Shown here: piece after piece, positions 3,314 to 60,849 of the stretch
Position numbering within the stretch: position 1 is the first letter of the stretch
Layout: each line of letters opens with the position of its first letter
DNA from: Chryseobacterium gleum
Lineage (GTDB): Bacteria; Bacteroidota; Bacteroidia; Flavobacteriales_D; Sanyastnellaceae
Direction: 5' to 3'
Length of the DNA stretch: 60,849 nt
Assembly (NCBI GenBank): GCA_945881835.1
Contig: CAMCVP010000012.1
Coordinates: forward strand, 1-60,849
Notes under the pieces: generated by a model
Seen by the model: the letters and a program-made list of their open reading frames with translations, nothing else
What the model was told of the DNA's origin: nothing
Database searches by the model: none
Made by a program: the position numbers and the translations under genes

Positions 3314-3331
3314 GCTGCGAATTTACAGCAA

Positions 3332-14805: not shown

Positions 14806-14812
14806 GAAGAAG

Positions 14813-15556: not shown

Positions 15557-15595
15557 TTCACAAATTTGAACGAAATAAATGAGATTTATTGGGAC

Positions 15596-15662
15596 TTTTT
15601 GTAAAAACTACAATTTTTTTTCAAAAAGTGTTTTTGTCTATAGTACAATTACTATATATTCG
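15596..15662 (+). promoter_or_regulatory. Double TTGT-N7-ACAA operator and promoter of the 883-residue CBM protein gene
   Basis: Site A is TTTTTGTAAAAACTACAATT (15596-15615); site B is TTTTTGTCTATAGTACAATT (15631-15650), 35 bp downstream. Site B provides the TTG (15634-15636), with an 18-base spacer to TATATTCG (15655-15662). Site A lies nearer the divergently transcribed Nudix regulator gene. The two sites 35 bp apart could allow cooperative binding. Confidence 0.72.
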
Positions 15663-15692
15663 CCCATACCTAAAAATTAATAAATAACCAAA

Positions 15693-18344: not shown

Positions 18345-18391
18345 TTCACTCAATCACTTAAGTATATAAAATACTTTAGTTTAAAAAAGTT

Positions 18392-18416
18392 AGAGGGCTT
18401 CGGCCCTCTTTCTTTT
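18392..18416 (+). terminator. Rho-independent terminator with C(UUCG)G tetraloop
   Basis: AGAGGGC (18392-18398), loop TTCG, GCCCTCT (18403-18409), then TTCTTTTT. The stem is perfect and the loop is the extra-stable UUCG type. It separates the 883-residue gene from the next CBM gene, which has its own promoter. Confidence 0.88.
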
Positions 18417-18424
18417 TGATATGC

Positions 18425-18456
18425 TTTTTGTAAAAGCAACAATTAGTCTATATTAG
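18425..18456 (+). promoter_or_regulatory. Promoter and TTGT-N7-ACAA operator of the 1101-residue CBM gene and GH16 gene
   Basis: TTTTTGTAAAAGCAACAATT (18425-18444) holds TTGT/ACAA with a 7-base centre. TTG at 18428-18430 is followed after exactly 18 bases by TATATTAG (18449-18456). Geometry is identical to the promoters at 13785 and 15631. Confidence 0.7.
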
Positions 18457-18476
18457 CACAACTTAAAATCAAACTT

Positions 18477-21400: not shown

Positions 21401-21782
21401 TGGACAAGAAAACCTAGTTTCTGGTTCTACATGTACGATTACTACAGATGGATTTACCAATCGTGTAATCACTGCAATCGATGCAGAAACTCTTCCTGCT
21501 GTATGTTGGGAAAGCTGTGAATTGTGTATTGATTTCGTTAGCGAAACTTCAAACAATCTTTCAGTTTATCCAAATCCTTCGAACGGAAACATTCGTATCA
21601 ACAGCAACTTAGGTCTTCCATACAACATCGAGGTATTCGATCTTTCAGGAAGAAAAGTTCAAGACATGAAAGTGTTCCAAAACAACACAGATATCAATTT
21701 GGAAAACCTTGCAAAAGGTGCTTACCAAATCAGAGTTTCAAACAACTACAATAGCGTTCGCGAGACCGTTATCATTCAATAA
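18477..21782 (+). CDS. Secreted protein with at least seven CBM48/20-like modules and T9SS signal
   Basis: 1101 residues: signal peptide (ending SAYAF); three CBM48/20-like repeats (about 22-345); a CTDMNAVNYNPAAGTNDGSC motif; a variant module with GPWCGWC (about 378-485); a jelly-roll-like domain of about 165 residues (about 490-655; WYTVADATLPEASMTWD to ILVDNIELNC); a second CTDPTALNYN motif; three further repeats (about 682-1012); and a T9SS type A domain (SVYPNPSNGNIRIN to the end). Many WCGxC, CT and CW..C cysteines recur at fixed spacing. Its stop overlaps the start of the GH16 laminarinase-like gene (TAATG), so the two are translationally coupled. I infer it concentrates the polysaccharide for the enzyme made from the same message. 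Confidence 0.82.
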   Translation: MFKKLLASFIVSLGMLSSAYAFNVTFSVDMNGSGLSNVSLNGNFNGWCGVCAPMSDTNADGIWEITIPLAAGTYEYKFTANSGANWEILAPGGSCTLTTGGFTNRVITVGADATLPTVCFASCSACNQAPPSYPVTFQVDMNAVTGFTTPTVNGSFDGWCGNCHPLTDTNADGIWETTLSLPTGSYEYKFAYDNWNGQENLTAGSTCTMTTGPYTNRVVNVSAAATLPAVCWGSCTACNIQPSSYSVTFQLDMQNVTGFTTPEVNGTFNGWCGNCNAMSDVNGDNIWETTVTIPAGNYEYKFSYDTWTGQENLTPGSSCTMTTGANTNRTLSLTANTTLPVVCWASCAACTVNTTPGCTDMNAVNYNPAAGTNDGSCLFATNFNVDMNCTDPFTNVYITGPWCGWCGADTYNILTDANADGIYSVTVNLAAGNVEYKYMVDNWASQENLVDDVQNGGTCAPVTDGATFANRQIAVGTTTNDVYGKCSACDGVVTDPCDILTLPFDNAGSLSSWYTVADATLPEASMTWDATGALRLSGSNTSVAIGKAYIFEYLNNAVNYNGNNTVQLEFDVKSVGALVGTALHLLTEFPGTGVTNTFDIQNGGLNENTWTHYSYTFNGLTAASIFRMHFNMAAGAFLGAGGTILVDNIELNCYTPTVIPGCTDPTALNYNAAATEDDGSCTYATTYNVTFQVDMQNVTGFTTPEVNGTFNNWCGGCAPMTDANGDNIWELTIPMAGGSYEFKYAYDAWAGQEALTEGSSCTVTNFGFTNRAINVNADVTLPVVCWASCTSCGQSPVSYSVTFQVDMQNVAGFTTPEINGTFNNWCGGCFTMTDANGDNIWEGTTVLEEGTYEFKYAYDAWAGSEQLTPGDACTITNGGFTNRLLEVTSDIVLPVVCWASCSDCGSIATPVDITFQVDMSQYLGTFTTPEVNGTFNNWCGGCAPMTDTNGDNKWEITIPLTPGTYEYKFAFDSWAGQENLVSGSTCTITTDGFTNRVITAIDAETLPAVCWESCELCIDFVSETSNNLSVYPNPSNGNIRINSNLGLPYNIEVFDLSGRKVQDMKVFQNNTDINLENLAKGAYQIRVSNNYNSVRETVIIQ

Positions 21783-25724: not shown

Positions 25725-26156
25725 ATGCGGAAGCTCACCCTGATATTTATCTTGGGCCTATACAGCTTAATGTCTTTCGGTCTGGAAGCCAAGCTGCACT
25801 TCTGTTGTGGAAAATTACAAGCCATACATTTCTTCGAATTCGGTGACGAGCATCACGACGATTCTCACTCCGATCACAAGGGCTGTTGCCATTCCGAAGG
25901 ATGCTCAGAAGACGTTCTTATCGCCCTTCAATACGAAAGCGAACACGAGCAATGCGCATCTCCTTCTGTCCCACAATTATTTGCTTCTACTCCTGAGCCT
26001 ACTTATTTCTTATTTTATGTTGAAGGAAAATGCCAATCGGCAAATGCTCAACCAACATCACACGTACCCTTAATCTTTGAGCGGTATTCTCTTTTCTGTT
26101 GCAGAAAAGTCCCAACGGGATTAGTCCACAAAGTGGATACATCCTTTCAGGATTAG
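25725..26156 (+). CDS. HYC_CC_PP-type exported Cys/His-rich protein, tail from repeat DNA
   Basis: A 143-residue exported protein with signal peptide (LIFILGLYSLMSFG) followed by LHFCCGKL and a dense metal-ligand stretch (DEHHDDSHSDHKGCCHSEGC). This matches the HYC_CC_PP family found beside heavy-metal TonB receptors and HMA proteins in Bacteroidota; here HYC reads HFC. Its role is thought to be metal handling but is not established. Residues after about 127 (VPTGLVHKVDTSFQD) are translated from the small-hairpin array that begins at 26109, so the natural C-terminus appears to be replaced by repeat-derived sequence. It precedes the HMA and TonB-receptor genes in the same direction. Confidence 0.75.
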   Translation: MRKLTLIFILGLYSLMSFGLEAKLHFCCGKLQAIHFFEFGDEHHDDSHSDHKGCCHSEGCSEDVLIALQYESEHEQCASPSVPQLFASTPEPTYFLFYVEGKCQSANAQPTSHVPLIFERYSLFCCRKVPTGLVHKVDTSFQD

Positions 26157-26283
26157 TCCGCAAAGCGGATGTATCCCAACGGGATTGGTCCACGAAGTGG
26201 ATATGTCCCAAAGGGATTAGTCCTTTCAGGATTAGTCCGCAAAGCGGATGTATCCCAACGGGATCGGTCCACGAAGTGGATAG
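26109..26283. repeat. Small-hairpin array, six-base AT-rich linkers
   Basis: Palindromes CCC-AAC-GGG, CCAC-AAA-GTGG, CC-TTTCA-GG, CCGC-AAA-GCGG, CCAC-GAA-GTGG and CCC-AAA-GGG are separated by six-base linkers ATTAGT, ATACAT, ATGTAT, ATTGGT, ATATGT or ATCGGT. A 62-bp block starting at 26142 recurs at 26221 with one difference. It fills the space between the HYC_CC_PP and HMA genes and encodes the tail of the former. Confidence 0.8.
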
Positions 26284-34821: not shown

Positions 34822-34935
34822 TTTTTATCTCATTCTCATTCTGTTTGTCACTCTCACTCTTTAACATTTCTCAAATTACAAAGACTCTTTAAGAAACAGA
34901 AACAGTAGGAGAATGAGAATGAGAATTATAAAATA
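34822..34935. repeat. CATTCT-type inverted element, copy 1
   Basis: Begins CTCATTCTCATTCTGTTT and ends AGAATGAGAATGAG, forming a long imperfect stem around a core containing AAGACTCTTTAAGAAACAG. The core is the reverse complement of that in copies 2 and 4. It lies directly left of the ogt gene; GTAAGAGAGGTTAAG precedes it. Confidence 0.7.
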
Positions 34936-34950
34936 CTAGAAACAGCAAGA

Positions 34951-35409
34951 ATGAATTCCTATCAAATCAGCCATCATTTCAAAATCGGGTATTTGCATTT
35001 ATTCTCCGACGGAACAAACATCACACGTGTTGATTTTGCCGATGAACAATTGAAGGAACAACGTTCGTGTGACATCTTAGAAACTGCGAAGAAGCAATTG
35101 CATGAATACTTCGCGAATACCCGTCAAACATTCGACTTACCGTTACTTCCTTCCGGAACCGAATTCCAGAAAAAGATTTGGGAAATACTCCTTCAAATTG
35201 AATTCTCAGAAACGAAATCCTATGAATGGGTTTCCCTTCAATATGGAAATAAAAAAGCCATTCGCGCAGTTGGACAAGCCATCGGGAAAAATCCAATTGC
35301 GATTTTTGTTCCTTGTCATAGAGTGATTGGGAAGAATGGCGCGCTTACTGGGTTTGCGGGAGGGCTAGAGCGGAAGGAGTCGCTGCTGAATTTAGAGAAT
35401 TCGTTATAG
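34951..35409 (+). CDS. ogt: Methylated-DNA--protein-cysteine methyltransferase
   Basis: A 152-residue suicide DNA-repair enzyme that moves the methyl group from O6-methylguanine to its own cysteine. The active-site motif VPCHRVIGKNGALTGFAGGLERK is near residue 120, with the preceding helix GNKKAIRAVGQAIGKNP; the short N-terminal domain is typical of Ogt/MGT. The gene is bracketed by two CATTCT-type inverted elements in opposite orientation (34822-34935 and 35418-35545), themselves bordered by GTAAGAGAGG/CCCTCTCTCAAC-like sequence. This gives a cassette-like unit of about 770 bp. No partner repair gene is near. Confidence 0.92.
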   Translation: MNSYQISHHFKIGYLHLFSDGTNITRVDFADEQLKEQRSCDILETAKKQLHEYFANTRQTFDLPLLPSGTEFQKKIWEILLQIEFSETKSYEWVSLQYGNKKAIRAVGQAIGKNPIAIFVPCHRVIGKNGALTGFAGGLERKESLLNLENSL

Positions 35410-35417
35410 GGAATAGT

Positions 35418-35545
35418 TTTATCTCATTCTCATTCTCCTACTCATTCTGTTTCTTAAAGAGTCTTGGCAATCAAAAAATTGTTAAAGAATGAGAAACAGT
35501 AAGAGAATGAGAATGAGTTTCTAAAACAGTAGGAGAATGAGACTA
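35418..35545. repeat. CATTCT-type inverted element, copy 2
   Basis: Starts TTTATCTCATTCTCATTCT and ends GTAGGAGAATGAGA. Its core GTTTCTTAAAGAGTCTT, then CAATCA-A-rich-ATTGTTAAAGAATGAGAAACAG, is nearly the same as copy 4. Orientation is opposite to copy 1 across ogt. CTTACCCTCTCTCAAC follows it. Confidence 0.7.
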
Positions 35546-35575
35546 TATCCTTACCCTCTCTCAACATAAAATCTC

Positions 35576-36832
35576 TTATGCCTGAATACGCGTGCCGCGT
35601 TTAGAGAAAACAGGTCTTCTGAATCGATTGGGATTTCTGACTCTAAGAATGAAGAGACCGATAACTAAAAGTCCCAGAAGTCTGTAAAATTGCGATGCCC
35701 AAATATCTATTCCCGCCGAAAGGGCTAGAGGTTTTTTTCCGTCTGCAGTGCGGAAAACGGGATTGGTGTAAATCTTCGATCCGTCTTTAAGTTTTATTTC
35801 AAATCGAACAAAATGTGAAACTTCTTTTAACCCGAATGCAAAGCTAGAGGTGGTGTTACTAAGCGCAGTATTCAGCAGGACTATGCCGTCTTGTCCAACA
35901 GCTTTAATCTCACGAATGCTGTCTGTGAAACCCAAGAAAATAGAATCGTTCACAAGCGTGTGCTGAATCAATTGTGGAAGTTTTTTGAATCGATTCGCTT
36001 TCGCTTCATGCGAATCTCCTTCAGGCGTTTGAACAACAAGTCCATAAGCATTGCCATGTTTCAACGCGTGAATAAGGCTGTCTTCGTTCGAAGACTTAGA
36101 ATGAATAACAGTAGCCACTCTCCCGTAATCGTTGGGCTTGTCTAGGTTGTGCGCATCATCATCGGCAACAAGAAAAACCGGATTCCCTGAAGAAAGAGCT
36201 GCATCCCACAATTCAAGACTGTTCTTGAAATTGCTAAGAGCTTCAATCAGATCATATCCGCGTAGCACCTTCATATCATCTGCGGAATAAGCGTCGCGCA
36301 AGGAAGGATGCGCTATGGCCACGCATTTGTTTTTCTTTTTCAATTCATTCAACACAAATTGCTTGCTGCTTTGCGATTGGAAAAGCGGAAAGTCGAGCCA
36401 CATCACTTCAGACGCGCCAATGCACACTTGGTGATTTTTGAAGGCTCCGTATCCATGCTCATAAACGGCTACATGCGGAAAAGAATCTTCCTGGTAGTGG
36501 TTTATTTTCATGTAATCTGAAATGGTGATGACATCGTAACCTAAATTTTTATAGGTCGAAAAAACACGTTCCGAGGAATTGTTTCTTCCATTCGTAACAC
36601 CCCCGTATGATTTCGATTGAATCTGGAAGTTCGACAGCTTCAAATCGTTTGTATCTATTGCTGTATAAGGGTTGTACCATTCACTTCCGTGAAAAGCTAC
36701 AGGCTCAGAAAAATTATAGACCGGAGGAATAAACCACCAGAGCAAAAGTGAAATAGCTACTGCGCCTCCAACAATCCACAATAGTGGTTTCAGAAAGAAG
36801 CGGACAATGTATTTTTTCGGACTGAATTTCAC
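35576..36832 (-). CDS. Membrane-anchored PHP-like protein with incomplete metal site
   Basis: 418 residues: N-terminal transmembrane helix (about 14-32, LLWIVGGAVAISLLLWWFI), a PHP-type phosphoesterase-like domain (about 55-290), a beta-rich region, and a C-terminal transmembrane helix (about 387-402). PHP-like segments are AIAHPSLRDAYSADD near residue 173 and VADDDAHNLDKPNDYG near residue 222. The first metal motif, normally HxH plus a Ser-Asp/Gly turn, reads QIQSKSYGG, so both leading histidines are missing. The domain probably faces the periplasm. No function can be assigned; a lost or altered phosphoesterase is the most likely reading. Confidence 0.55.
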   Translation of the reverse strand: MKFSPKKYIVRFFLKPLLWIVGGAVAISLLLWWFIPPVYNFSEPVAFHGSEWYNPYTAIDTNDLKLSNFQIQSKSYGGVTNGRNNSSERVFSTYKNLGYDVITISDYMKINHYQEDSFPHVAVYEHGYGAFKNHQVCIGASEVMWLDFPLFQSQSSKQFVLNELKKKNKCVAIAHPSLRDAYSADDMKVLRGYDLIEALSNFKNSLELWDAALSSGNPVFLVADDDAHNLDKPNDYGRVATVIHSKSSNEDSLIHALKHGNAYGLVVQTPEGDSHEAKANRFKKLPQLIQHTLVNDSIFLGFTDSIREIKAVGQDGIVLLNTALSNTTSSFAFGLKEVSHFVRFEIKLKDGSKIYTNPVFRTADGKKPLALSAGIDIWASQFYRLLGLLVIGLFILRVRNPNRFRRPVFSKRGTRIQA

Positions 36833-36951
36833 CCAACGAATTTAATTTTCGTATTCAGCGTGAATGTCAATGCAAGTTGAAAATAAGACTATAGAATTGT
36901 TTTCGCAACGTGAAGAAAATCACTAAATGTTAAGGGAAGTTAAGATTTTAT

Positions 36952-36992
36952 CTGATTCTCATTCTGTTTCTCATTCTGTTTCTCATTCTTTA
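36952..36992. repeat. CATTCT-type element, half copy 3
   Basis: Runs of CATTCT and GTTTCT (TGATTCTCATTCTGTTTCTC and onward) end in TTTAATTATTTC just before the four-helix-bundle gene end. GTTAAGGGAAGTTAAG precedes it, matching the borders of the other cassette. Confidence 0.6.
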
Positions 36993-37002
36993 ATTATTTC
37001 TT

Positions 37003-37386
37003 TTACCCGCGAATCTTCTCTGACAAATTACGAACCATGGCAAACAACATTTTAGAAAGCTCAATTGAAACTTCCATTTGTTTCTCATGTTGATGAGAAT
37101 CTATTTGATTTTCTAAAAGCATAATATCAAATATTGCAACGCATTCAAAAATTGACGCTCTGGCCATTGTGAAGAAGTGACGTCTATCATTTGGAGACAT
37201 GCGTCCAGATCCCTCAGCAATATTGAGAACAATACTGTATGAAGCGCGTGCCAATTGATCTTTGACATGTCGTTGGTTTTTACAAGCGCGAAGTATCGCA
37301 TTACATTCTACATGAAATGTTTTTGCCTTCTTGTAAACTTCCAATTTTTGAAAGTCAAATCGCTGTGAAGTTGGAGTGCTAATCAT
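37003..37386 (-). CDS. Four-helix-bundle protein (23S intervening-sequence/S23 family)
   Basis: A 127-residue all-helical protein of the TIGR02436-type family: opening FDFQKLEVYKKAKTFHVEC, the second-helix signature RASYSIVLNIAEGSGRMS, and the third-helix GRASIFEC-like segment (MARASIFECVAIFDIMLL). Relatives occur in insertions of 23S rRNA genes, as stand-alone genes, and as the Avd partner in diversity-generating retroelements; their molecular role is unknown. Here there is no reverse transcriptase or rRNA. CATTCT-type repeats lie on both sides (36952-36992 and 37468-37656), forming a unit of about 750 bp similar in plan to the one around ogt. A second member of this family is at 53218. Confidence 0.88.
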   Translation of the reverse strand: MISTPTSQRFDFQKLEVYKKAKTFHVECNAILRACKNQRHVKDQLARASYSIVLNIAEGSGRMSPNDRRHFFTMARASIFECVAIFDIMLLENQIDSHQHEKQMEVSIELSKMLFAMVRNLSEKIRG

Positions 37387-37467
37387 TTAGCAAATCTTCG
37401 AAAGAATTTTCACATCTGCACTATCCTTTATGTGCAGGTTATATGCTGTTTATTCCTTTTCGCAATA

Positions 37468-37656
37468 AAATTCTCATTCTGTTTCTATTTGTCATTCTCA
37501 TTCTGTTTCTCCTACTCATTCTGTTTCACCCACTCATTCTGTTTCTCCTACTCATTCTGTTTCTTAAAGAGTCTTTACAATCATAAAATTGTTAAAGAAT
37601 GAGAAACAGTAGGACAAACAGAATGAGACTTTGATACACTAGGAGAATGAGAATGA
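37468..37656. repeat. CATTCT-type inverted element, expanded copy 4
   Basis: The longest copy: a run of CATTCT/GTTTCT/CCTACT units, the core TTTCTTAAAGAGTCTTTACA followed by ATTGTTAAAGAATGAGAAACAG, and the inverted AGGAGAATGAGAATGA end. CTTACCCTCTCTTACC follows. The number of short units varies among copies. Confidence 0.75.
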
Positions 37657-40819: not shown

Positions 40820-40889
40820 GATGACGGCGAAGCCGATGACACCGAAGGTGATGACACACTTCGTGTGATGAACTTCTTCGAAGGATGAC
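40820..40889. repeat. Small-hairpin array, linker GATGAC, upstream of the Fic gene
   Basis: GATGAC linkers separate GGC-GAA-GCC, ACC-GAA-GGT, ACAC-TTC-GTGT and CTTC-TTC-GAAG. It ends 77 bp before the Fic start codon. Confidence 0.85.
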
Positions 40890-40891
40890 TA

Positions 40892-40939
40892 ATAAGCTCA
40901 ATTCACGGTCTTTTTGAGCTCAAAATGAGCTTATATTTG
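40892..40939 (+). promoter_or_regulatory. Promoter and AGCTCA-type operators of the Fic gene
   Basis: ATAAGCTCA (40892-40900) and TGAGCTTAT (40926-40934) are inverted copies, and between them lies the palindrome TTTTGAGCTCAAAA (40912-40925). The last half-site overlaps an exact -7 box TATATTTG (40932-40939), 27 bp before the ATG. The encoded protein has an N-terminal winged helix, so autorepression is a reasonable inference. Confidence 0.6.
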
Positions 40940-40966
40940 TGCAGATTGATAAGTAATTGAGTCAAT

Positions 40967-42004
40967 ATGAAAAATAACGAGCGAATAATCCTGAATTATA
41001 TTCAACAATTTCCCCAATGCTCTTCCAAGGAAATTCATGAAAATATTCCAATTGAATTAGGATATGCGACCGTAAAACGTGTGCTGGCATCTTTAATAGA
41101 AAAAGAACTCATTCTTAGTTTTGGGAATGCTAGAGCGACAAAATACAGCGTTAGCCCAAATCATCTTGTCCTTTCAGAAATAGATCTAGACAAATACTTC
41201 GAGAAGGAAATTGATGAACGAATTATTCAATCTTCTTTCAACTTTGATCTTATTCAATCTACTCTTCCGCATATTCCACTTTTCACCTCAACAGAAATTG
41301 ATAAATTGAATCGCCTTCAATTCATTTACACTGAAAATATAAAACGCCTTTCGGAAAACCAACTTTCGAAAGAACTGGAACGTCTTGCCATAGACCTCAG
41401 TTGGAAATCTTCGCAAATAGAAGGAAATACATACTCCCTGCTAGAAACTGAACAGTTACTGAAAGACAAACTTACCGCCAACGGCAAAACGCAGGCCGAA
41501 GCACACATGCTGCTAAACCACAAAGAAGCTATCGATTTCATTATTTCAAATCCAGATTATCTTCATCCGGTTAGCGTCTCGCGCATTGAGGATATTCATA
41601 GCCTACTGGTCAAAGACCTTGGCGTGAATAGAAACATTCGCAATCACCGCGTTGGTATTTCAGGCACGAATTACCAACCTCTCGATAACGACCACCTCAT
41701 TCGAGAGGCCATGCAACATCTTTGCGATGTTGTGAACGCAAAAGAATCGGTTTTCGAAAAAGCACTTCTCATCCTCATCCTCATTTCATACATTCAACCC
41801 TTCGACGATGGAAATAAACGAACCGCACGAATAGTTAGCAATGCCTGCCTTATTCATCACGGACATTGCCCCATCTCCTTCCGGACAGTAGATTCCATTC
41901 ACTACAAAAAAGCTATACTGCTCTTCTACGAGCAAAACAATATCTCTGCGTTTAAATCAATTTTTATTGATCAATTTGAATTTGCAGTGAAGACGTATTT
42001 CTGA
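40967..42004 (+). CDS. Winged-helix Fic-domain protein with Gln in place of catalytic His
   Basis: 345 residues: an N-terminal winged helix (about 1-65; SKEIHENIPIELGYATVKRVLASLIEKELI), an inhibitory-helix motif SSQIEGN near residue 147 fitting the (S/T)xxxE(G/N) rule, and a Fic core (about 195-310). The core motif HxFx(D/E)GNxRxxR reads QPFDDGNKRTAR near residue 275, so the histidine that activates the target hydroxyl is glutamine. Canonical Fic enzymes AMPylate proteins; without this His the activity may be weak, altered or lost. From memory, a subgroup of HTH-Fic proteins shares this Gln, but I cannot confirm it here. GATGAC-type hairpin arrays flank the gene, and it has its own candidate operator. 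Confidence 0.88.
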   Translation: MKNNERIILNYIQQFPQCSSKEIHENIPIELGYATVKRVLASLIEKELILSFGNARATKYSVSPNHLVLSEIDLDKYFEKEIDERIIQSSFNFDLIQSTLPHIPLFTSTEIDKLNRLQFIYTENIKRLSENQLSKELERLAIDLSWKSSQIEGNTYSLLETEQLLKDKLTANGKTQAEAHMLLNHKEAIDFIISNPDYLHPVSVSRIEDIHSLLVKDLGVNRNIRNHRVGISGTNYQPLDNDHLIREAMQHLCDVVNAKESVFEKALLILILISYIQPFDDGNKRTARIVSNACLIHHGHCPISFRTVDSIHYKKAILLFYEQNNISAFKSIFIDQFEFAVKTYF

Positions 42005-42011
42005 TTGAATC

Positions 42012-42121
42012 ACCTTCTTCGAAGGATGACACCGAAGGTGATGACCGCGGAGCGGATGACATCGCGAAGCGATGATGACACCTTCGGTGATGACCGTACC
42101 GGATGACACACTTCGTGTGAC
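42012..42121. repeat. Small-hairpin array, GATGAC half, in the Fic 3' region
   Basis: GATGAC linkers separate CCTTC-TTC-GAAGG, ACC-GAA-GGT, CGC-GGA-GCG, ATCGC-GAA-GCGAT, ACC-TTC-GGT, CG-TAC-CG and ACAC-TTC-GTGT. It starts 8 bp after the Fic stop and ends at a terminator. Confidence 0.87.
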
Positions 42122-42122
42122 G

Positions 42123-42154
42123 AAAAAGGCCCACGGAAATCCGCAGGCCTTTTT
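42123..42154 (+). terminator. Terminator between the two half-arrays downstream of Fic
   Basis: AAAAAGGCC (42123-42131) pairs with GGCCTTTTT (42146-42154), with an inner CGG/CCG pairing, followed by CTTTATTTT. It can act in both directions for the convergent Fic and small-peptide genes. Confidence 0.75.
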
Positions 42155-42164
42155 CTTTATTTTA

Positions 42165-42262
42165 ATCCCGAAGGGTCATCAGCCTTGCTGTCATCACGTT
42201 AGTGTCATCAATCGAAGATTGTCATCACAACTTGTTGTGTCATCCTTATCAGAAGGTATCAT
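42165..42262. repeat. Small-hairpin array, GTCATC half
   Basis: After the terminator the linker is GTCATC, the reverse complement of GATGAC, between CCC-GAA-GGG, AGC-CTT-GCT, AC-GTTA-GT, AATC-GAA-GATT, ACAAC-TT-GTTGT and a degenerate last unit. It fills the gap to the small-peptide gene. Confidence 0.83.
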
Positions 42263-42586: not shown

Positions 42587-45500
42587 TTAGGGTGCAAGCG
42601 GTGAAATAACAACCTTTCTCTTCACCTCACCTACTTCAACAATGTATAATCCAGCGGCTGTATTAAGGTCAATAATCATCTCATTGCTGCTCATGCGTTG
42701 GGTGTAAACCAGGCTGCCTGTGCTGTTGTAAACTCTTACAGTTGCTTTTGTTAGTTCTGCATTGTCGATGTTGGTCCACACTTTTATTTGATGACCTGTT
42801 GTTGTGTACACAAGCACGTCGTTCTCTTGCGAAGCACCTTCCGAAGGACCTTGCACCGCATCTTTCGTAGAACCTTGTGCAACACCTTGCTCCGCATCTT
42901 GCAACGCACCTTGTGCAACACCAACGATACACATGTATTGCACAGGTCCCCAGTTGTAGTTACTTGCTGTGTAAGTGAACAACGGTGCTGTTTGTACCGC
43001 ATACGTCTTACCGCTTTGAAGCTGGTTTACCGTTCCAAGATTCAAGTAGTTCGATGCAGCGCCGCGGTTCAACTCAATAGGTAATCCTACCGCTTGAAGC
43101 GTCAATGGGTTCACCTCTGTAAATCTCCATCTCCAGTTGTTCGCTCCACACACCCATGGCATGCTCGATACAACGGCTCCTCTGAACCTTGGTCCGTTGT
43201 TGCAGCTGCTGCTTGCGCTAAGCGTAGTTTGTGGTTGAGCAATCGTTACAACCTGACATCCGCTGTTGCTTGGCACAGTTACTTGTTCTGTGTTACCTGC
43301 TCCGTCGGTAAGGGTGTATGTGTTAGAGATCGTTACATCGTACGTTGAACCGTAAGGAAGAACTGGAGTCACTGTGCTTAGAACGCAGATGTCTGAGTTC
43401 TGTGTGCGGGTGAACGTTTGTCCGGCTGCTGGTCCGCTTGTTCCCGTGAACGTGAACGTGTAGCTAACGCCGGTTGATCCTGCCCATGTTGCCTTGTAGT
43501 ATTGGCATAGGCTATATGGACCTGCACCGTAATCACATCCACCACGCTTCAATGATTTTACGCAGATACCGTATGTTCCTGTTGGTTGGCTGCTGATGTT
43601 GTTGCGAACACCTACTTTGTAAGTTTGTCCTGCAGTTAATCCGAAGAAGTTTAACGTCTCGTTACCGATACCGTTTACTACGTTCTCTTGTGCTACCACG
43701 TTTCCTGTTCCATCTTGTAGTTCAATAACGATATCAGTAGATGCTGTGTTCACTTCGATGCTTACTCCTTCGCTTGTTGCGGTGAACGCATGCCATTGGT
43801 CTTCTGTGCTCACGTTGTTACACTGTGGCCAGTTGCTTGTTGGCATGGCAATAGCCGTTGCTGCTGTTTGTCCAGGTAAAGCGGGAACGAACGGAGCGAA
43901 GTGCAACACGAAGCGGTTGTTGAATGTTCCTGCTACGCTAGTGAACGAGTAGTTCGGAGTTGTCTTCAAGTTTTGGTATGCACCTGTGATCTTGTCCTCC
44001 AAGAACACGTCTTCGTCGATACCGATTTCTGTTGCATTGATAGTATATGTTGCTGCCAATGGGATTTGAACTCCTACTTGAACGGTGTCTTTAACTAGGG
44101 CATTCTGAATACCGTCGATAGAAAGTCTTTTGGTGCCTTCTAAGCAGTAAATCTGATAAGCAGTTGATGCTACGATAATCTTATCTGAGTCGTACGTGTC
44201 GTTCGTGTTTTGTGCATCTTCGTTTACGTAAACCAAAGCCTCATCAGTATAAGTACCATTCGTTAAGTGGAAGCGAACGCGGGCCGTGTTCTCTAGCGTA
44301 TGAAGCGTAGAAGTGCCGTGAGAGCGCATACCGTTGTTGAACGTAACGGATATCGTGCCTGTTGGTGCGTATACCCAGAACGCTTGCATAGGAGCAATGT
44401 ACTCGTTCGTCGTGCTACCATTAACAGACTGGCCACCGTTGGCATTGTAAGCAGAGTACTTCATTCCGTTACCAGCATTAAGTTGTGGGTCGAACGTACG
44501 AACCCAATAAGTACTTGCTAGGTTCGGGTTCGCGTCTCTAAACTGCGTCCAATTTAATGTCGATGGATAAGGATTGCTAATCAAATTATATCCCGCTGAA
44601 CCCGGAGTCGTATTGGCAATACCTGACAACGTAATAGTACCGTTGTTGATGTGCTGCTGATCGAAAATAACGTTTGCGGCAGATGTGCTGCGGAACAAAT
44701 AGCCACGGCCAGAGGTCATCGTTACTGCACCTCCTGAATAACCGTCACCAAAAATTTGTTGCCATTGCGTAGATGCAGATGAATTGTGTAACCAAAGCTT
44801 GGGTGTACCGCTATTTCCGAAAACATCAGAGGCCGCAGTCTCGCCCGATACAGGGCTACCGATGTACCAATAGCGAGCAGGGTTACCTGCCAAAGTAGAA
44901 CTCGTAGTTGCGGCTAACGTCTTATAGACCTTATAGGTACCGCCTGTATTCACATTGCTATCTGAGCCGCTGCCTGTCTGAACCAAACTACCGCCGTCGG
45001 CGATGCTGATTGTGCCGTTGTTAGTGATCGTGCCTTCGACCGACAGTTTACCAGTTGAGGTAAGAGAGAGAGTGCCAGAAGAGTTAATCGTATTTGCTGC
45101 AGCAGCAGCGCTAATTGTCACTGTTGTATTCGCGGGAATTATTACATTCGTTGAAGATGTTGGAATACCGCCGCACCAGTTGGCACCATCATTCCAGTTG
45201 CCAGTTGATGTACCGATCCAGGTGCCGGTAGCGTTTACTGTGAGGGTTCCATTGTTATAAGTTATGGAATAATTACTTAATCCTGAACCCTGAGCTGCAG
45301 ATGGAACAATAGATGCATTTCCAGCTGAAGCATTTGACGCCGCACCAGCGCTCGTTAAAGTAACCGATGAAACAGCATCTCCAGAAATTAAACCTGAAGT
45401 TGAAAATGCAGTAGTTCCGAGAGTATAAGTTGTACCGAAACATTTCGAAACGCTATTGGCGGTGATGGTTAGAGGTTTCTGAGCAATTGTAAATGACTCT

Positions 45501-48500
45501 GTCGAACTTCCCGAAATATAATTCGCATCTTCCTCAACCGTTGCAGTAACGGTGTAACTTCCTGCATTTGTTGGACGAGTGCTACTTGGTCCGTAGCTTG
45601 TTGGAGCAGCTCCTTCGTAACTATAAGTTACCGAAGTCGGTGTTGGTGTTAATGCAGTAATTGAATTTGGTCCTTGAACAGAACCATTGTAAGTGTATGA
45701 CCCAATAATTGGTGTTACATTCGGTGTTTTCTTAGTAGTAACTGTAATCACATTGCTATTAGCAGAAGCCGATCCATCTGTTGCTCGCATTCGGTAGTAA
45801 TAAGTAGTGTTTTCAGACAAACCTGTTACGGCTTTTGAAGTTCCTGAAATTGTCAAATCTTCATAGCCTGCAACAAAACTTGGGATCACGACAGCTTGAG
45901 TACCTGCTACGGTAATATCATCTATACCTACACCTTTATTAGAACCTGCCCCTAAAGTTTCTAATTTAATTTGAATTGTAGAAGAACCTGAATATGCACC
46001 AAGATTGTAAGCAGTCATGGCTGATATTGTAGACGATGTTGGAATAGTTGAGCCTAAACTGATAAAAGAACCTCCATTAACAGATATGGAAACAGTAATC
46101 GTGCTTTGTGCGGGACTTGGGCCACCAAAAGTTCTAGCAGAAAAATTTAGAGAACAAGAAGTAAAAGAAGTAAAATTCATGCTTGGGGTAATTACTATAG
46201 AAGTTGAAGTAAGTAATTGCAAGTAGTTGTTACTTGAAACAGAACCTTGAGCGACATTGGTTTCTGTCCAACCAGAAGCTCCAATTGAACCCGTATTATT
46301 GACAATTTGAGTATTTGGAGTTGATGTAGTTGTACTAAAATTAGAAGAAGTACTTACATCCAATTTATACCCTGTTGCATTCGTCACCGCATCCCAATTT
46401 GCCGTAAAGCCATTTTCCAAAATACTTGATGCTGTATTGGCAACTGGCGAAGTCAGGACAGGCGTAACACTATTTGAGGCAGCACTTGCTGTACTTGCAC
46501 CTGCCGCATTATTTGCTTTAACGGTAAAAGTATAAGCTGTTCCATTTGTTAAGCCAGTAACTGTTATAGTACCACTTCCTGCTTGGTTTAGTGTTCCTAT
46601 AATAGAACCTGGAGTAGATGTAGCTGTATAGCTTGTAATAGCAGAACCACCATTAGAAACTGGTGCAGTAAATGTTACGGTTGCCTGTCCATTCCCTGCA
46701 GTAGCTATTCCAATGGTTGGTGCACCTGGAGTTGTTGCAGGCGTTCCTAAAGAACTTGCTGTTGCAATTCCATCACCAATAGCATTAACCGCTTTGATTT
46801 GAACATTGTAAGATGTTCCATTTGACAACCCTGTAATTGTTATTGGGCTAGTGGTAGTCGCTGGCGATAACGTAGTAAAAGTGCTGCCTCCATCAGTTGA
46901 ATATTTGTAGTTGGTAATCGCGGAACCTCCTGAAGGACCAGCTGTAAATACAACTGATAACTGAGCATTTCCTGCTATTATTCCGTTTATAATTGGAGCA
47001 CTGGGAGTAGTTGCCGGAGTAGCAGTTGTTGAGACTGTTGGTGTCCCATCACCGATGGCATTAACCGCTCTTATTTGCACATCATAAGATGTCCCATTTA
47101 TTAAACCTGCAATCGTTATTGGGCTCGTGGTAGCTGATGGCGTTAAAGCGGTAAATGTAGCACCTCCATCAGTTGAATATTTGTAATTGGTAATGGCAGA
47201 GCCTCCGGTGGCTCCCGCTGTAAATGCCACACTTAATTGTCCATTGCCTGGCGTAATTGATGTAATTGTGGGTGCTCCTGGTGCTACAGCAGCAGCAGAT
47301 GGAGTTCCTGTTGTACTTGCGGTTGCAATACCTTCACCTTGAGCATTTACTGCTTTTATTTGCACGTTATAAGTTGTACCATTAGTCAAACCTGTAATTG
47401 TTATTGGGCTTGCTGTAACTGCTGGCGATACTGCTGTAAAAGAAGACCCACCATCAGTTGAATACATATAATTTGTAATTGCAGATCCTCCTGTGGCACC
47501 TGAAGTAAATGCAACGGACAGTTCTTGATTACCCGGTGTAATGCTAGTGATGGTTGGTGCAGATGGAGTAGTTGCTGGTGTTGCGGCGGCTGAAGCCGTT
47601 GCCACTGTACCATCGCCAGCTACGTTGACAGCGCGAATACGAACAGTGTAAGCTGTTCCATTTGTAAGTCCAGTAATTACTATTGGACTGGCAGTACCTG
47701 CGCGTGTTGTGTAATTTGTTCCATCTACTGACCATTTGTAATCTGTTATTGACGACCCTCCATCTGATCCTGCCGTAAATGCAACACTCAACTGGCCGTT
47801 GCCAGGTATAATACTTGTGATGGTTGGTGCACTCGGAGTAGTTCTTGGCGTTGCCGTTGCGCTAGCAGTGGCCGTTCCATCTCCCGCAGCATTTACTGCT
47901 CTGATTTGAATATCGTAAGATACCCCATTTGTTAGTGCTGTTGTACCATCTGTCGAAAGAGTAGAAATCACCAATGGACTGGCTGTTGTGCCTATTGATC
48001 TGGTTTGCCAATTTGCACCTCCATTTGTAGAATATTTATACGTTGTTATGGCGGAACCACCATCTGAGCCCGCTGTAAATGCTACACTCAATTGTTGGTT
48101 GCCCGGTGTAATAGTTTCAATTGTTGGCGCACCAGGCACTGTTCTCGGTGTAGCCGATGCACTAGCTGTTGCCGCTCCATCACCATTTGCATTAATCGCT
48201 CGAATTTGCACGTTGTAAGAGGTCCCATTTGTAAGTCCTGCAATAACTATTGGGCTTGAAGTACTTGGAGGAGATACTGCAGTGAAGTTTGTACCACCAT
48301 CTGTTGAGTATTTGTAATTGCTAATAGCTGAACCCCCATTTGAACTAGGAGTTGTATATGCTACAGATAATTGTTGATTTCCTGGTGTAATGGAAATACC
48401 TGTGGGTGCGTTGGGTGTTGCAGAAGAAATTGAAATTGTTCCCATGCCAACATTTCCTGTCGCCTTGGTTGTGTATGTCCATTTGATGTATCTCGTAGCC

Positions 48501-48907
48501 AAACTAGGGACATCCGTGTACAAAACATTAGAGGTCGTTAATGCTGTGACAGTTCTTAGTGTTGTAAATGTTGTACCGTTCTCTGATTCGGAAATTGTAA
48601 AGGTTCCTCCTGAAAAACCATTGCCTTTTAGATTATAGGTCAATGACAATGGCGCGGAGGCAATATATAAGGTGGCTGTCTTGGCGGTTGCGTCAAACTT
48701 AATACGAGATCCCGTATCCGAATAATCACTTCCAACATTGACATTTGTCCATCCATTGGCACTAGTCATTGAAGAAGATCCGGAATTGAATGAATATGGT
48801 AAAATCTGCGCCGTCTGCCCCCACCCCATCTCTGCCATTCCGAAAAAGGAAAGAACGATTAAAGCGCGTTGAGTAAAACGACAAATGGGAGATGCGAAAG
48901 ATTTCAT
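42587..48907 (-). CDS. Giant secreted adhesin with fibronectin-III repeats, MBG domain and T9SS signal
   Basis: 2106 residues. A signal peptide (ending GWGQT) and a jelly-roll-like domain (about 25-160) are followed by about seven fibronectin-III repeats of 88-95 residues (about 165-795), each with an ITPGNQQLSV-like opening and GLTNGTSYNVQIRAVN. Next come a cysteine-poor region with a further FN3-like unit, an MBG-type domain (ANYISGSSTESFTIAQKPLTIT), and long beta-rich domains ending in a T9SS-type sorting domain (about 2030-2106, VYNSTGSLVYTQRM). A low-complexity segment near residue 2000 (VAQGALQDAEQGVAQG) is encoded by a small-hairpin array at 42828-42920. It is probably a surface adhesin for gliding, attachment or aggregation. 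No enzyme motif was seen. Confidence 0.85.
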   Translation of the reverse strand: MKSFASPICRFTQRALIVLSFFGMAEMGWGQTAQILPYSFNSGSSSMTSANGWTNVNVGSDYSDTGSRIKFDATAKTATLYIASAPLSLTYNLKGNGFSGGTFTISESENGTTFTTLRTVTALTTSNVLYTDVPSLATRYIKWTYTTKATGNVGMGTISISSATPNAPTGISITPGNQQLSVAYTTPSSNGGSAISNYKYSTDGGTNFTAVSPPSTSSPIVIAGLTNGTSYNVQIRAINANGDGAATASASATPRTVPGAPTIETITPGNQQLSVAFTAGSDGGSAITTYKYSTNGGANWQTRSIGTTASPLVISTLSTDGTTALTNGVSYDIQIRAVNAAGDGTATASATATPRTTPSAPTITSIIPGNGQLSVAFTAGSDGGSSITDYKWSVDGTNYTTRAGTASPIVITGLTNGTAYTVRIRAVNVAGDGTVATASAAATPATTPSAPTITSITPGNQELSVAFTSGATGGSAITNYMYSTDGGSSFTAVSPAVTASPITITGLTNGTTYNVQIKAVNAQGEGIATASTTGTPSAAAVAPGAPTITSITPGNGQLSVAFTAGATGGSAITNYKYSTDGGATFTALTPSATTSPITIAGLINGTSYDVQIRAVNAIGDGTPTVSTTATPATTPSAPIINGIIAGNAQLSVVFTAGPSGGSAITNYKYSTDGGSTFTTLSPATTTSPITITGLSNGTSYNVQIKAVNAIGDGIATASSLGTPATTPGAPTIGIATAGNGQATVTFTAPVSNGGSAITSYTATSTPGSIIGTLNQAGSGTITVTGLTNGTAYTFTVKANNAAGASTASAASNSVTPVLTSPVANTASSILENGFTANWDAVTNATGYKLDVSTSSNFSTTTSTPNTQIVNNTGSIGASGWTETNVAQGSVSSNNYLQLLTSTSIVITPSMNFTSFTSCSLNFSARTFGGPSPAQSTITVSISVNGGSFISLGSTIPTSSTISAMTAYNLGAYSGSSTIQIKLETLGAGSNKGVGIDDITVAGTQAVVIPSFVAGYEDLTISGTSKAVTGLSENTTYYYRMRATDGSASANSNVITVTTKKTPNVTPIIGSYTYNGSVQGPNSITALTPTPTSVTYSYEGAAPTSYGPSSTRPTNAGSYTVTATVEEDANYISGSSTESFTIAQKPLTITANSVSKCFGTTYTLGTTAFSTSGLISGDAVSSVTLTSAGAASNASAGNASIVPSAAQGSGLSNYSITYNNGTLTVNATGTWIGTSTGNWNDGANWCGGIPTSSTNVIIPANTTVTISAAAAANTINSSGTLSLTSTGKLSVEGTITNNGTISIADGGSLVQTGSGSDSNVNTGGTYKVYKTLAATTSSTLAGNPARYWYIGSPVSGETAASDVFGNSGTPKLWLHNSSASTQWQQIFGDGYSGGAVTMTSGRGYLFRSTSAANVIFDQQHINNGTITLSGIANTTPGSAGYNLISNPYPSTLNWTQFRDANPNLASTYWVRTFDPQLNAGNGMKYSAYNANGGQSVNGSTTNEYIAPMQAFWVYAPTGTISVTFNNGMRSHGTSTLHTLENTARVRFHLTNGTYTDEALVYVNEDAQNTNDTYDSDKIIVASTAYQIYCLEGTKRLSIDGIQNALVKDTVQVGVQIPLAATYTINATEIGIDEDVFLEDKITGAYQNLKTTPNYSFTSVAGTFNNRFVLHFAPFVPALPGQTAATAIAMPTSNWPQCNNVSTEDQWHAFTATSEGVSIEVNTASTDIVIELQDGTGNVVAQENVVNGIGNETLNFFGLTAGQTYKVGVRNNISSQPTGTYGICVKSLKRGGCDYGAGPYSLCQYYKATWAGSTGVSYTFTFTGTSGPAAGQTFTRTQNSDICVLSTVTPVLPYGSTYDVTISNTYTLTDGAGNTEQVTVPSNSGCQVVTIAQPQTTLSASSSCNNGPRFRGAVVSSMPWVCGANNWRWRFTEVNPLTLQAVGLPIELNRGAASNYLNLGTVNQLQSGKTYAVQTAPLFTYTASNYNWGPVQYMCIVGVAQGALQDAEQGVAQGSTKDAVQGPSEGASQENDVLVYTTTGHQIKVWTNIDNAELTKATVRVYNSTGSLVYTQRMSSNEMIIDLNTAAGLYIVEVGEVKRKVVISPLAP
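42828..42920. repeat. Small-hairpin array inside a coding sequence
   Basis: Eight units with a strict 12-bp period: TGC-GAA-GCA, TCC-GAA-GGA, TGC-ACC-GCA, TTC-GTA-GAA, TGT-GCA-ACA, TGC-TCC-GCA, TGC-AAC-GCA, TGT-GCA-ACA, separated by CCT or TCT. The period is four codons, so the adhesin reads through it as a (V/A/S/P)xQ(G/D)-type repeat. Units match those in the 22821 array. Confidence 0.85.
46537..48412 (-). repeat. DNA-level repeats encoding fibronectin-III modules
   Basis: About seven imperfect repeats of 260-285 bp within the adhesin gene, each encoding one FN3 module and sharing long stretches such as the YKYSTDGG and GLTNGTSYNVQI codons. Such tracts are prone to unit gain and loss. Confidence 0.75.
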
Positions 48908-52947: not shown

Positions 52948-52962
52948 TCCACGAAGATAATA

Positions 52963-53214
52963 CCTTCTTCGAAGGATGACGCAACGCAGTTGCGATGACC
53001 GCGGAGCGGATGACGGCGAAGCCGATGACACTTCGTGATGACCGCGGAGCGGATGACACCGGAGGTGATGACAAACTTCGTTTGATGACGATTTTCAATC
53101 GATGACCGCTTCGCGGAGCGTCATCCACGCAGTGGTCATCCGGAACGGTCATCCCGCAGGGTAATCCACGGAGTGGTCATCCGGAACGGTCATCACGTAG
53201 TGTCATCACGAAGT
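52963..53214. repeat. Small-hairpin array, GATGAC turning to GTCATC
   Basis: Left half, linker GATGAC: CCTTC-TTC-GAAGG, GCAAC-GCA-GTTGC, CGC-GGA-GCG, GGC-GAA-GCC, AC-TTC-GT, CGC-GGA-GCG, ACC-GGA-GGT, AAAC-TTC-GTTT, GATT-TTC-AATC. A central CGC-rich unit lies near 53107-53120. Right half, linker GTCATC: CAC-GCA-GTG, CG-GAA-CG, CCC-GCA-GGG, CAC-GGA-GTG, CG-GAA-CG, AC-GTA-GT, AC-GAA-GT. It fills the whole gap between the CPBP protease and the four-helix-bundle gene. Confidence 0.9.
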
Positions 53215-53217
53215 GTG

Positions 53218-53568
53218 TTAACCTCTCTTCTTAATAAACTTTATAAATGCATACAACTCCCGAATAAACTGATTACACTGAGTTTTCAGACTGTGCTGTT
53301 CAATATCGGAAATGATTCTGTCATGTTGGAATTTCTCTATCCAGAAGTTTGTTTCTTTCGCTTCTCTTAAGCTTATATATAGCTTACTTAAAATCATTTT
53401 ATTGCTTTGCGATGCAAGTGCCTCTTGAATATTCGCAGCCACAGAAGAAGAACTTCTAAGACATTGATCAATGGTCTTGATGTGCATGTAATCTCTCCGA
53501 TGCTTTTTACAAACCTCAGAAATATGGAAGGAAAGAGCTTTTGATTTTTGTTCAATAGAAGTCTTCAT
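53218..53568 (-). CDS. Four-helix-bundle protein (S23 / 23S intervening-sequence family), second copy
   Basis: A 116-residue all-helical protein with the family signature RSSSSVAANIQEALASQS near residue 34 and KLYISLREAKETNFWIEKF near residue 61, closing with a Lys-rich FIKFIKKRG. It is diverged from the member at 37003, so it is not a recent duplicate. GATGAC/GTCATC hairpin arrays abut it at its 3' side (52963-53214, within 4 bp) and lie beyond its 5' side (53718-53913). The molecular role of the family is unknown. It sits alone between the CPBP protease and the RND efflux operon. Confidence 0.87.
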   Translation of the reverse strand: MKTSIEQKSKALSFHISEVCKKHRRDYMHIKTIDQCLRSSSSVAANIQEALASQSNKMILSKLYISLREAKETNFWIEKFQHDRIISDIEQHSLKTQCNQFIRELYAFIKFIKKRG

Positions 53569-53717
53569 TGAGTATAGAATTTCATCAAAATTCTTTTCAC
53601 AACTCTATTCTCGCAATTATCTGTTATGTGATTTTCATATAAAATATTCCCAATTCCCTCGGAAATCCAAGACCTTCACCCCTTGTAGATATAACCAACT
53701 CACACATAAACAATAAT

Positions 53718-53913
53718 CCCGAAGGGTCATCCGCATCGCGGTCATCACGAAGTGTCATCCTTCGAAGAAGGTCATCACCTCCGGTGTCATCGCAACTCCG
53801 TTGCGTCATCCGCATCGCGGTCATCACGAAGTGTCATCCTTCGAAGAAGGTCATCCGGAACGGTCATCACCTCCGGTGTCATCCAGCTTCGCTGGTCATC
53901 ACAACGTGTTGTG
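53718..53913. repeat. Small-hairpin array, GTCATC linker throughout
   Basis: Units CCC-GAA-GGG, CGC-ATC-GCG, AC-GAA-GT, CTTC-GAA-GAAG, ACC-TCC-GGT, GCAAC-TCC-GTTGC, then CGC-ATC-GCG, AC-GAA-GT and CTTC-GAA-GAAG again, CG-GAA-CG, ACC-TCC-GGT, CAGC-TTC-GCTG and ACAA-CGTG-TTGT, each separated by GTCATC. A three-unit block is repeated. It lies next to the terminator of the efflux operon. The stretch 53569-53717 shows nothing else. Confidence 0.9.
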
Positions 53914-53920
53914 TAAAGAA

Positions 53921-60589: not shown

Positions 60590-60849
60590 CACACTTTGTG
60601 TGATGACGCAACGGAGTTGCGATGACCGCGGAGCGGATGACACCGTAGGTGATGACAAACTTCGTTTGATGACGATTTACAATCGATGACGAACAAGTTC
60701 GATGACCGCTTCGCGGAGCGTCATCCACGCAGTGGTCATCCGGAACGGTCATCCCGCAGGGTAATCCACGCAGTGGTCATCCGGAACGGTCATCCCGCAG
60801 GGTAATCCACGCAGTGGTCATCCGGAACGGTCATCCCGCAGGGTAATCC
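60590..60849. repeat. Small-hairpin array, GATGAC turning to GTCATC, running off the window end
   Basis: Left half, linker GATGAC: ACACA-CTT-TGTGT, GCAAC-GGA-GTTGC, CGC-GGA-GCG, ACC-GTA-GGT, AAAC-TTC-GTTT, GATT-TAC-AATC, GAAC-AA-GTTC, then the central CGC-rich unit. Right half, linker GTCATC: CAC-GCA-GTG, CG-GAA-CG, CCC-GCA-GGG, repeated as a 41-bp block that starts at 60725, 60766 and 60807 and continues past the edge. The central portion matches 53067-53205 closely. Confidence 0.9.

Follow-up and report, generated by a model that had tools for sequence, protein, structure and literature searches.

A short, near-fixed linker alternating with a variable palindromic cassette forms a real class of repeat in the window, as an initial annotation of the same DNA had proposed from the letters alone. 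By the window we mean the whole stretch of DNA analysed, 60,849 nt long (contig C12, positions 1-60849, of genome G000, a 2.53-Mb draft in 38 contigs). The hexamer GATGAC or its complement GTCATC occurs there exactly 71 times, where 31.1 occurrences are expected and the highest of 100 shuffles reached 45. Moreover, the window holds 44 units in which a perfect palindrome stands between two copies of GATGAC, against none in each of 100 dinucleotide shuffles, which confirms the observation. No Rfam RNA family matched anywhere in the window at gathering thresholds.

Arrays in the window

We saw the pattern at all five places at which it had been announced. The array at 40820-40889 (forward strand) has four exact linkers and a degenerate one, GATGAA. 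At the second place, described as a single array at 42012-42262, the pattern held but two arrays are present: a forward GATGAC array with six linkers (42013-42119), which begins 8 nt past the stop codon of a Fic-domain gene (40967-42004), faces a reverse-strand GTCATC array with five (42167-42244), and a terminator-like inverted repeat, read directly from the letters, lies between them at about 42123-42155. The array at the third place (52963-53215) is two-sided, with nine GATGAC and then six GTCATC linkers and the 13-bp core CGCTTCGCGGAGC between its facing arms (53107-53119). Together with a reverse-strand GTCATC array of 12 linkers (53718-53913), found directly beyond the terminator-like repeat after an RND transporter gene, it flanks a reverse-strand PF05635 gene of the 23S rRNA-intervening-sequence protein type (53218-53568). 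The last array (60590-60849) is again two-sided, with seven GATGAC and then seven GTCATC linkers around a core identical to the one at 53107 (60707-60719), and it is cut off by the end of the contig within a 41-bp tandem repeat. Arrays also mark assembly breaks, as the window itself ends in one.

Each array unit can be written as C-stem-loop-stem-G followed by ATGA, the C and the G being supplied by the GATGAC hexamer. Because the last C and the first G of the linker can always pair as the foot of the hairpin, the unpaired linker is ATGA/TCAT and the stems, given as mostly 2-5 bp in the initial annotation, measure 3-6 bp. Between hexamers the palindromes are mostly 7, 9, 11, 12 or 13 nt long. 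Among units of 4-22 nt between successive linkers of the same direction, 183 of 200 in this genome and 176 of 185 in its relatives are perfect palindromes around a loop of 3-4 nt, fractions that describe arrays and not genomes, since the stretches used were array-bearing or whole small contigs. The stretches read, which did not take in every contig, contain at least 30 segments with three or more linkers in this genome and 24 in the relatives. We tallied 464 four-base spacers between adjacent perfect hairpins and found ATGA in 453, ATTA in seven, ACGT in two and ATAA in two, a count that leans to ATGA because the arrays were selected for three or more exact linkers and spacers were admitted only if they differed from ATGA by no more than two changes. 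The linker is thus short and nearly fixed, but it is not fully invariant as first described, and other linker classes exist in the genus.

The arrays are also more ordered than the earlier picture suggested, with a polarity, often a core, and outer hairpins. Both linker directions are present in 15 segments, and in 14 of them a GATGAC side is followed by a GTCATC side, the exception (L159) ending in one lone hexamer. The core 13-mer GCTCCGCGAAGCG or its complement separates the arms in nine of the 13 two-sided arrays compared (L152 and L159 stand outside this comparison). Outward from the core, one arm often shows the unit order GAACTTGTTC, GATTGWAAATC, AAACGAAGTTT or AACGAAGTT, and then often ACCTCCGGT; since this order recurs, also in the relative G008, the arrays look like related copies and not like independent inventions. 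Of 54 segments, 46 retain an intact hairpin beyond the last linker at their left end and 43 at their right end.

Stem pairing, loops and folding

To describe pairing we used 375 context-distinct units of 6-13 nt from array stretches of this genome and its relatives, which comprise 120 unit types, 107 of them perfect; we left out 16 intervals of 14-40 nt that separate consecutive linkers of one direction in our own and relative stretches. Watson-Crick pairs account for 1159 of the 1174 stem pairs, the rest being nine A.C, two G.T and four others, and they make up 384 of 398 pairs when each of the 120 types is counted alone. RNA helices normally tolerate G.U pairs, and their near absence here argues against a role in RNA only. 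These counts point to stem pairing that is kept at the DNA level. Unit types that differ from one another do so by one loop change in 84 pairs of types, by one compensated stem pair in 37, by one uncompensated change in 13 and by two uncompensated changes in two, so that compensated changes keeping the stems perfect, a feature of template-switch products, prevail over uncompensated ones. Selection on pairing would likewise yield an excess of compensated type pairs. Non-Watson-Crick pairs numbered 5 of 202 in units of 7 nt, 1 of 369 at 9 nt, 6 of 320 at 11 nt, 3 of 172 at 12 nt and 0 of 75 at 13 nt, with no clear trend with stem length. Reverse-complement pairs of types, that is, loop inversions, are rare (four among the 107 perfect types).

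Three-base loops are typical, as had been noted from the first. We tallied 319 of them: 79 are GNA, all closed by a C-G pair, and 170 are TNC, 132 of these C-G closed, which gives 211 loops that read C(GNA)G on one strand or the other. C(GNA)G loops are a class of very stable DNA mini-hairpins, and d(GCGAAGC) in particular is reportedly (Hirao, in 1994) an extraordinarily stable one. When folded as single-stranded DNA, positions 53714-53916 gave a z-score of -4.3 and most units formed separate hairpins in the minimum-energy fold. The two-sided array at 52959-53220 scored -6.4 as DNA and -4.3 as RNA, with its facing arms partly paired together.

Distribution across genomes

We searched this genome and its relatives for linker-palindrome units, as the initial annotation had advised, and found palindromic GATGAC arrays in eight of the nine genomes of the genus, which belongs to the Flavobacteriales. 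A three-linker pattern matched seven of 60 genomes, all within these nine, and none of the 51 genomes of other genera, although it requires one 7-nt unit and also misses G008, which has arrays, so that a lack of matches does not prove that arrays are absent. A two-linker pattern run over the same 60 genomes matched 57. It occurs 203 times in this genome (six times for the reversed-pattern control) and 16 to 127 times in seven relatives; outside the genus we counted 0-19 matches per genome, mostly due to chance. The 76 matches of seven outside genomes were read fully and by eye contained no perfect palindrome, many being runs of Asp codons, while the other outside matches listed included one perfect palindrome by eye, 9 nt long, in G039. 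By the same reading, 15 of the 16 matches in G008 are perfect, and neither of the two in G007, a member of the genus, is palindromic. Four of the nine genus genomes are less than 88% complete, so gene absences in those four mean little.

The arrays are unevenly spread, as fifteen random 20-kb stretches of this genome (300 kb) lacked arrays with three linkers or more, a two-linker pair being present in two of them. A pattern scan of GTDB found arrays, among the matches listed (117 loci), in L010, L021, L027, L038, L041, L050, L054, L086, L097 and L124; L097 and L124 have flanks in common with this genome. L028 and L090 show short runs of one or two unit types. Carriage by phages was considered and rejected: 33 IMG/VR stretches fit the three-linker pattern and none has a perfect palindromic unit. 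We recognised no published description of this repeat in the titles and abstract openings surveyed, a survey that did not extend to subscription papers and preprints.

Chains with other linkers

GATGAC is one among several linker classes in the genus. This was observed with a detector of runs of small perfect hairpins separated by any spacer of 2-8 nt, for which the shuffle maximum was 23 in 0.48 Mb. The window has one such chain at 26110-26280 (score 52), made of TCC-hairpin-GGA units with joiners TTAG, TAC, TGT, TGG and similar, and another, mostly of 12-nt period, on the reverse strand at 42826-42938 (score 29), within the coding sequence 42587-48907. Elsewhere we found a TCT-spaced chain (L250 1711-1925, score 55), CCAAT/GGAAT-spaced chains in L260 (27), L267 (33) and L268 (29), 15-nt tandem repeats of small palindromes in L253 (48 and 33), and, in L038, ATTGG-spaced chains along with TG-spaced chains of AT-ended hairpins. 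Irregular chains scoring 24-26 were present in this genome (window position 15539, L258, L263) and in G004 (L265), and G007 (76 kb) yielded one irregular chain of score 26 against the shuffle maximum of 23. The detector returned no chain in 60 kb of G008 and only one simple tandem repeat (two hits in G019) in thirteen stretches of other genera (248 kb). From 790 kb of loci of diverse bacteria, a set that excludes ten loci of the genus type, five chains reached 28, all of them in GC-rich DNA or a simple repeat and lacking a regular linker.

An array within fdhD

One array lies inside a gene, most of the others being intergenic. Six genomes (G000, G001 and G003-G006) carry a GATGAC array in frame within fdhD (PF02634), a few codons past the CGICGK motif. 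The insert was absent from the stretch inspected in G007 and in 14 genomes of other genera with an fdhD match, and the fdhD profile found no match in G002 and G008. The array varies in length and units among genomes, and its units of 6-13 nt are perfect in 31 of 33 cases, G003 having one further irregular unit of 17 nt. The frame is kept because units either measure 15 nt or come as a 17-nt and a 13-nt unit together, a combination that also avoids a TGA stop within ATGA. Two differences between genomes are synonymous as well as compensated: GAACGAAGTTC and GAGCGAAGCTC both read Glu-Arg-Ser-Ser, and the array ends CGCTGCGCG and CACTTCGTG both read Thr-Leu-Arg. Such differences could also come about through replacement of whole units.

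Turnover and block copies

Orthologous places were located by Blast of the array flanks against our set of loci. At these loci the flanks are 80-96% identical, and the place of the array is kept, as are linker, polarity and pairing, while its units are largely replaced. Flanks of L135 and L154 are 90% identical, yet of their 10 and 11 units only three are identical in order; the corresponding figures are nine for L127 and L153 (11 and 28 units) and one for L128 and L153 (9 and 13 units). The window array at 53705-53920 shares one of its 11 units with L218 (six units, flanks 94% identical) and two with L224 (seven units). Some pairs are more conservative, such as L135 and L163 (10 and 5 units, five identical) or L133 and L124 (3 and 4 units, two identical). 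L161 holds, opposite the L133 array at 3177-3363, what reads by eye as a chain with a different class of linker. The RND gene has a two-linker array beside it in G003, just one linker in G006 and nothing of the kind in G004, with other repeats following in each; in G007 the stretch inspected past this gene shows a terminator-like repeat but lacks an array.

Blocks of units recur in diverged form at other places of the genome, in one case together with a gene that lies between two arrays. Positions 53099-53207 and 60699-60807 of the window are 95% identical. Over 139 nt, the window segment 60588-60726 is 93.5% identical to an array located well within contig C19. A stretch of 812 nt comprising the PF05635 gene and parts of the two arrays around it is 88% identical between C12 and C19, the second copy of this gene in the genome lying between arrays as well. 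The matching interval lacks the gene in G001, G003, G004 and G006, and in G002 (L224) it retains sequence like the start of the gene. We did not count as a block copy the 108 nt, 100% identical, that are common to the right ends of C12 and C19, which may represent one array split by the assembly.

Gene context and candidate partner genes

A stop-to-stop frame of at least 100 codons, reading towards the array, ends between -40 and +60 nt from the outer edge in 31 of 54 segments, and does so on both sides in 11; this is a raw count over frames not checked as genes and has no baseline from random intergenic sequence. The stop codon directly abuts the outer hairpin at five array edges. With respect to the nearest gene end the direction of the linker is mixed (18 sense, 12 opposite and nine two-sided), as judged with a crude ORF caller that produces artefactual open ends.

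Two gene families were tried as partners and rejected. PF05635 genes have an array in their flanks at three of 28 loci, the third of these being L284 with a two-linker array, and the flanks examined at the other 25 have none; the family occurs in 24 of 36 genomes searched, 16 of 27 outside the genus. Six Y1_Tnp genes are present in four of the nine genus genomes (G000, G001, G004 and G006), two of them in this genome, and none of the six Y1/RAYT loci has a GATGAC array in its flanks (up to 1.5 kb). No Y1 match was found in the array-bearing G003, which is 96% complete, or in the less complete G002, G005 and G008.

Possible origin of the arrays

From the pattern that we observed, namely the pairing, the turnover, the block copies and the limitation to one genus among the genomes searched, we infer a mechanism, and we see about an even chance that the chains are selfish or neutral self-copying DNA mini-hairpins, in which template switching maintains perfect stems and recombination reshuffles the units. 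Hairpins would fold or stall replication, and strand switching inside a hairpin would copy one arm onto the other, giving perfect stems and compensated pairs; similar linkers would provide short homologies for the gain and loss of units and blocks and for their exchange between arrays. On this view the position of many arrays behind stop codons, and of one in a tolerant protein loop, would reflect the little harm that insertions do at such places. Template switching is described as making and maintaining perfect hairpins (PMC8794818). Against it, the counts per unit length show no clear disadvantage of the shortest stems, and selection on the hairpin may explain perfect short stems better, because copying from arm to arm should be inefficient on stems of 3 bp. 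Loop inversion, expected from some switches, is rare, and the linker is kept very well for a passive spacer even in a count that leans to ATGA. The partial pairing between the arms of 52959-53220 also sits poorly with a picture of separate hairpins. Selection might instead act on the transcript, the arrays being mRNA 3′-end elements in which a row of hairpins blocks 3′ exonucleases or aids termination, as proposed for REP. The frame ends near 31 of 54 segments, the five abutting stops, the terminator-like repeat flanked by the facing arrays at 42013-42244 and the good fold of the two-sided array as RNA lend some support to this reading and to the earlier suggestion of transcript ends. However, G.T pairs that RNA would tolerate are nearly missing (2 of 1174), which speaks against an RNA-only role, linker direction is mixed even allowing for crude ORF calls, one array lies within fdhD, and unit content is poorly conserved at orthologous loci, so we consider selected 3′-end elements improbable.

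An enzyme acting on single-stranded hairpins, whether one like the HUH/Y1 transposases or another, might read the linker tag and the hairpin and move or exchange units in the manner of RAYT and REP. The fixed tag with a hairpin does resemble the tetranucleotide-plus-hairpin logic of IS200/IS605 and REP (PMC6006769), polarity and a common core suggest a defined element, and this genome has two Y1_Tnp genes. Nevertheless, the absence of arrays from the flanks of all six Y1 genes of the genus, the lack of a Y1 match in several array-bearing genomes and, for PF05635, the few array-flanked loci together with the wide occurrence of the family outside the genus leave such an enzyme, by analogy with RAYT, unlikely. 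We are similarly doubtful of a bolder version, in which a dedicated enzyme system of the lineage would write and rewrite the chains, with a class-specific linker, C(GNA)G hairpins made de novo by fold-back synthesis, fixed loci with changing contents and coexisting linker classes. The near-fixed linker and the mostly intact outer hairpins would also be in keeping with arrays that serve as docking sites for a nucleoid or other DNA-binding protein recognising GATGAC at steps of 13-19 bp, but the unit lengths of mostly 7, 9, 11, 12 and 13 nt give no constant helical phase, a binding protein would not need perfect palindromes, and spacing is uneven, with 300 kb in fifteen stretches free of arrays of three or more linkers; docking is therefore very improbable. 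Template switching, selection at transcript ends or an enzyme of linker and hairpin would each leave much of the same pattern. In general, decay or deletion is the expected fate of short palindromes. Here many tiny hairpins remain almost perfect despite sequence turnover between species, even in a reading frame, which makes the lineage a natural system in which to study template-switch mutation and the birth and spread of short palindromic repeats. If the chains were driven by an enzyme, it would be a new DNA-writing activity.

Comparison with known repeat systems

The initial annotation had set the arrays apart from CRISPR and REP/BIME, and both distinctions stand. A CRISPR array consists of identical repeats of some tens of nucleotides with unique spacers and cas genes; here the repeat has only 6 nt and the "spacers" are palindromes common to several arrays and species. 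The Rickettsia palindromic element is one conserved element of about 100-150 nt, whereas array length and units differ here between genomes. A MITE is marked by terminal inverted repeats and a target-site duplication; at the outer edges of the arrays we saw hairpins beside varied sequence, which in itself speaks neither for nor against a MITE. Rickettsia elements and PARCEL are palindromic DNA within protein-coding sequence (PMC2996958, PMC6649704), a likeness to the in-frame array that leaves fdhD open in six genomes, but this array strings together very small hairpins, nearly all of them perfect, in varying number within one fdhD loop, and the Rickettsia elements are described as losing arm identity over time (PMC6649704). 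Short palindromic repeats of Volvox organelles and the double-hairpin elements of Allomyces, thought to be selfish or mobile, are also small hairpins with loops of a few nucleotides; they differ in being organellar, in the stems of 5-29 bp of the Volvox plastid and in that the available excerpts of the two papers mention no fixed linker or polarity (PMC2670323, PMC7218506). The TAACTGA direct repeats of Beggiatoaceae, Cyanobacteria and some Bacteroidetes, located in the main species mostly just upstream of start codons, resemble our arrays as short fixed motifs in intergenic arrays, but there the heptamer itself repeats, and the excerpt available mentions no hairpin between copies (PMC4679880).

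REP and BIME elements are likewise interspersed, mostly intergenic palindromes with a short tag and often clustered. Each REP family, however, has one palindrome consensus, whereas the arrays combine a near-fixed linker with a varying palindrome (120 types among 375 units). GTAG REP stems are 5-13 bp, against 3-6 bp here (PMC3733652). The foot of the hairpin carries ATGA in 453 of 464 spacers, in a count biased to ATGA-like ones, in place of the GTAG/GTGG tetranucleotide of REP, and no Y1 gene of the genus is flanked by the repeats. CGTC-tagged REPs, which include RPE-4/6 of Rickettsia conorii and dRS3 of Neisseria, occur in Bacteroidetes and are described as having no known dedicated transposase, have a tag [CT]GTC followed by AT that resembles the GTCAT of our linker (PMC3733652). 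According to the same source, their stems are 8-9 bp and start with AT pairs, their loops are mostly 4-5 nt, a CCA-like tail follows and most form head-head dimers (PMC3733652); the units studied here are short-stemmed (3-6 bp, counting the C-G of the linker) and without those AT pairs, their loops are mostly of 3 nt, and within an arm they follow one another head to tail. Descent from CGTC-REPs was rejected after a scan for NGTC with an AT-starting stem of 6-10 bp, whose six hits at five places all fell outside GATGAC arrays. The arrays matched none of REP/BIME, CGTC-REP, RPE and CRISPR, each of which has at least one tested defining feature that they do not share. We regard them as a new variety within the broad kind of interspersed palindromic repeats, because a mosaic of palindromes and linkers also underlies the idea of the BIME.

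The PF05635 gene at 53218-53568 on the (-) strand, which belongs to the 23S rRNA-intervening-sequence protein type family, has a second, diverged copy on another contig of this genome, C19 (locus L293), and GATGAC arrays, chains of small near-perfect hairpins joined by GATGAC/GTCATC linkers, lie on either side of both copies. The gene of 53218-53568 is missing from the corresponding interval in four relatives (G001, G003, G004 and G006). Another PF05635 gene, at 37042-37350, is flanked by two of three places with CTCATTCTGTTTCT / AGAAACAGAATGAG repeats, whose arrangement within 34823-37652 is partly inverted; motifs similar to CTCATTCTGTTTCT / AGAAACAGAATGAG were also observed close to an array at locus L218.

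Hairpin chains with other linkers were found as well. At 26110-26280, TCC-hairpin-GGA units are chained by linkers of 3-4 nt with regular variation, and a palindromic chain with a period of mostly 12 nt (42826-42938, (-) strand) lies within an open reading frame of 2106 aa, in the portion that encodes the C-terminal region. Locus L253 (10347-11388) carries long tandem runs of the 15-nt repeat AACTNNCGTT plus GTTGG/GTTAG, in which every unit is a small palindrome. Separately, a direct repeat of 300 nt occurs nine times within 13888-21509 of the window, its copies sharing 64-76% identity with the reference copy.

Positions 60742-60849, inside an array tandem repeat, match the right end of C19 over 108 identical nt, and because both contigs end in this sequence, C12, the contig of the window, and C19 may join at their right ends. 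Two other array-bearing loci, L021 and L050, come from MAG records labelled Chryseobacterium gleum. L050 and this genome also have flanks in common, at 83% identity, so these labels may be wrong.
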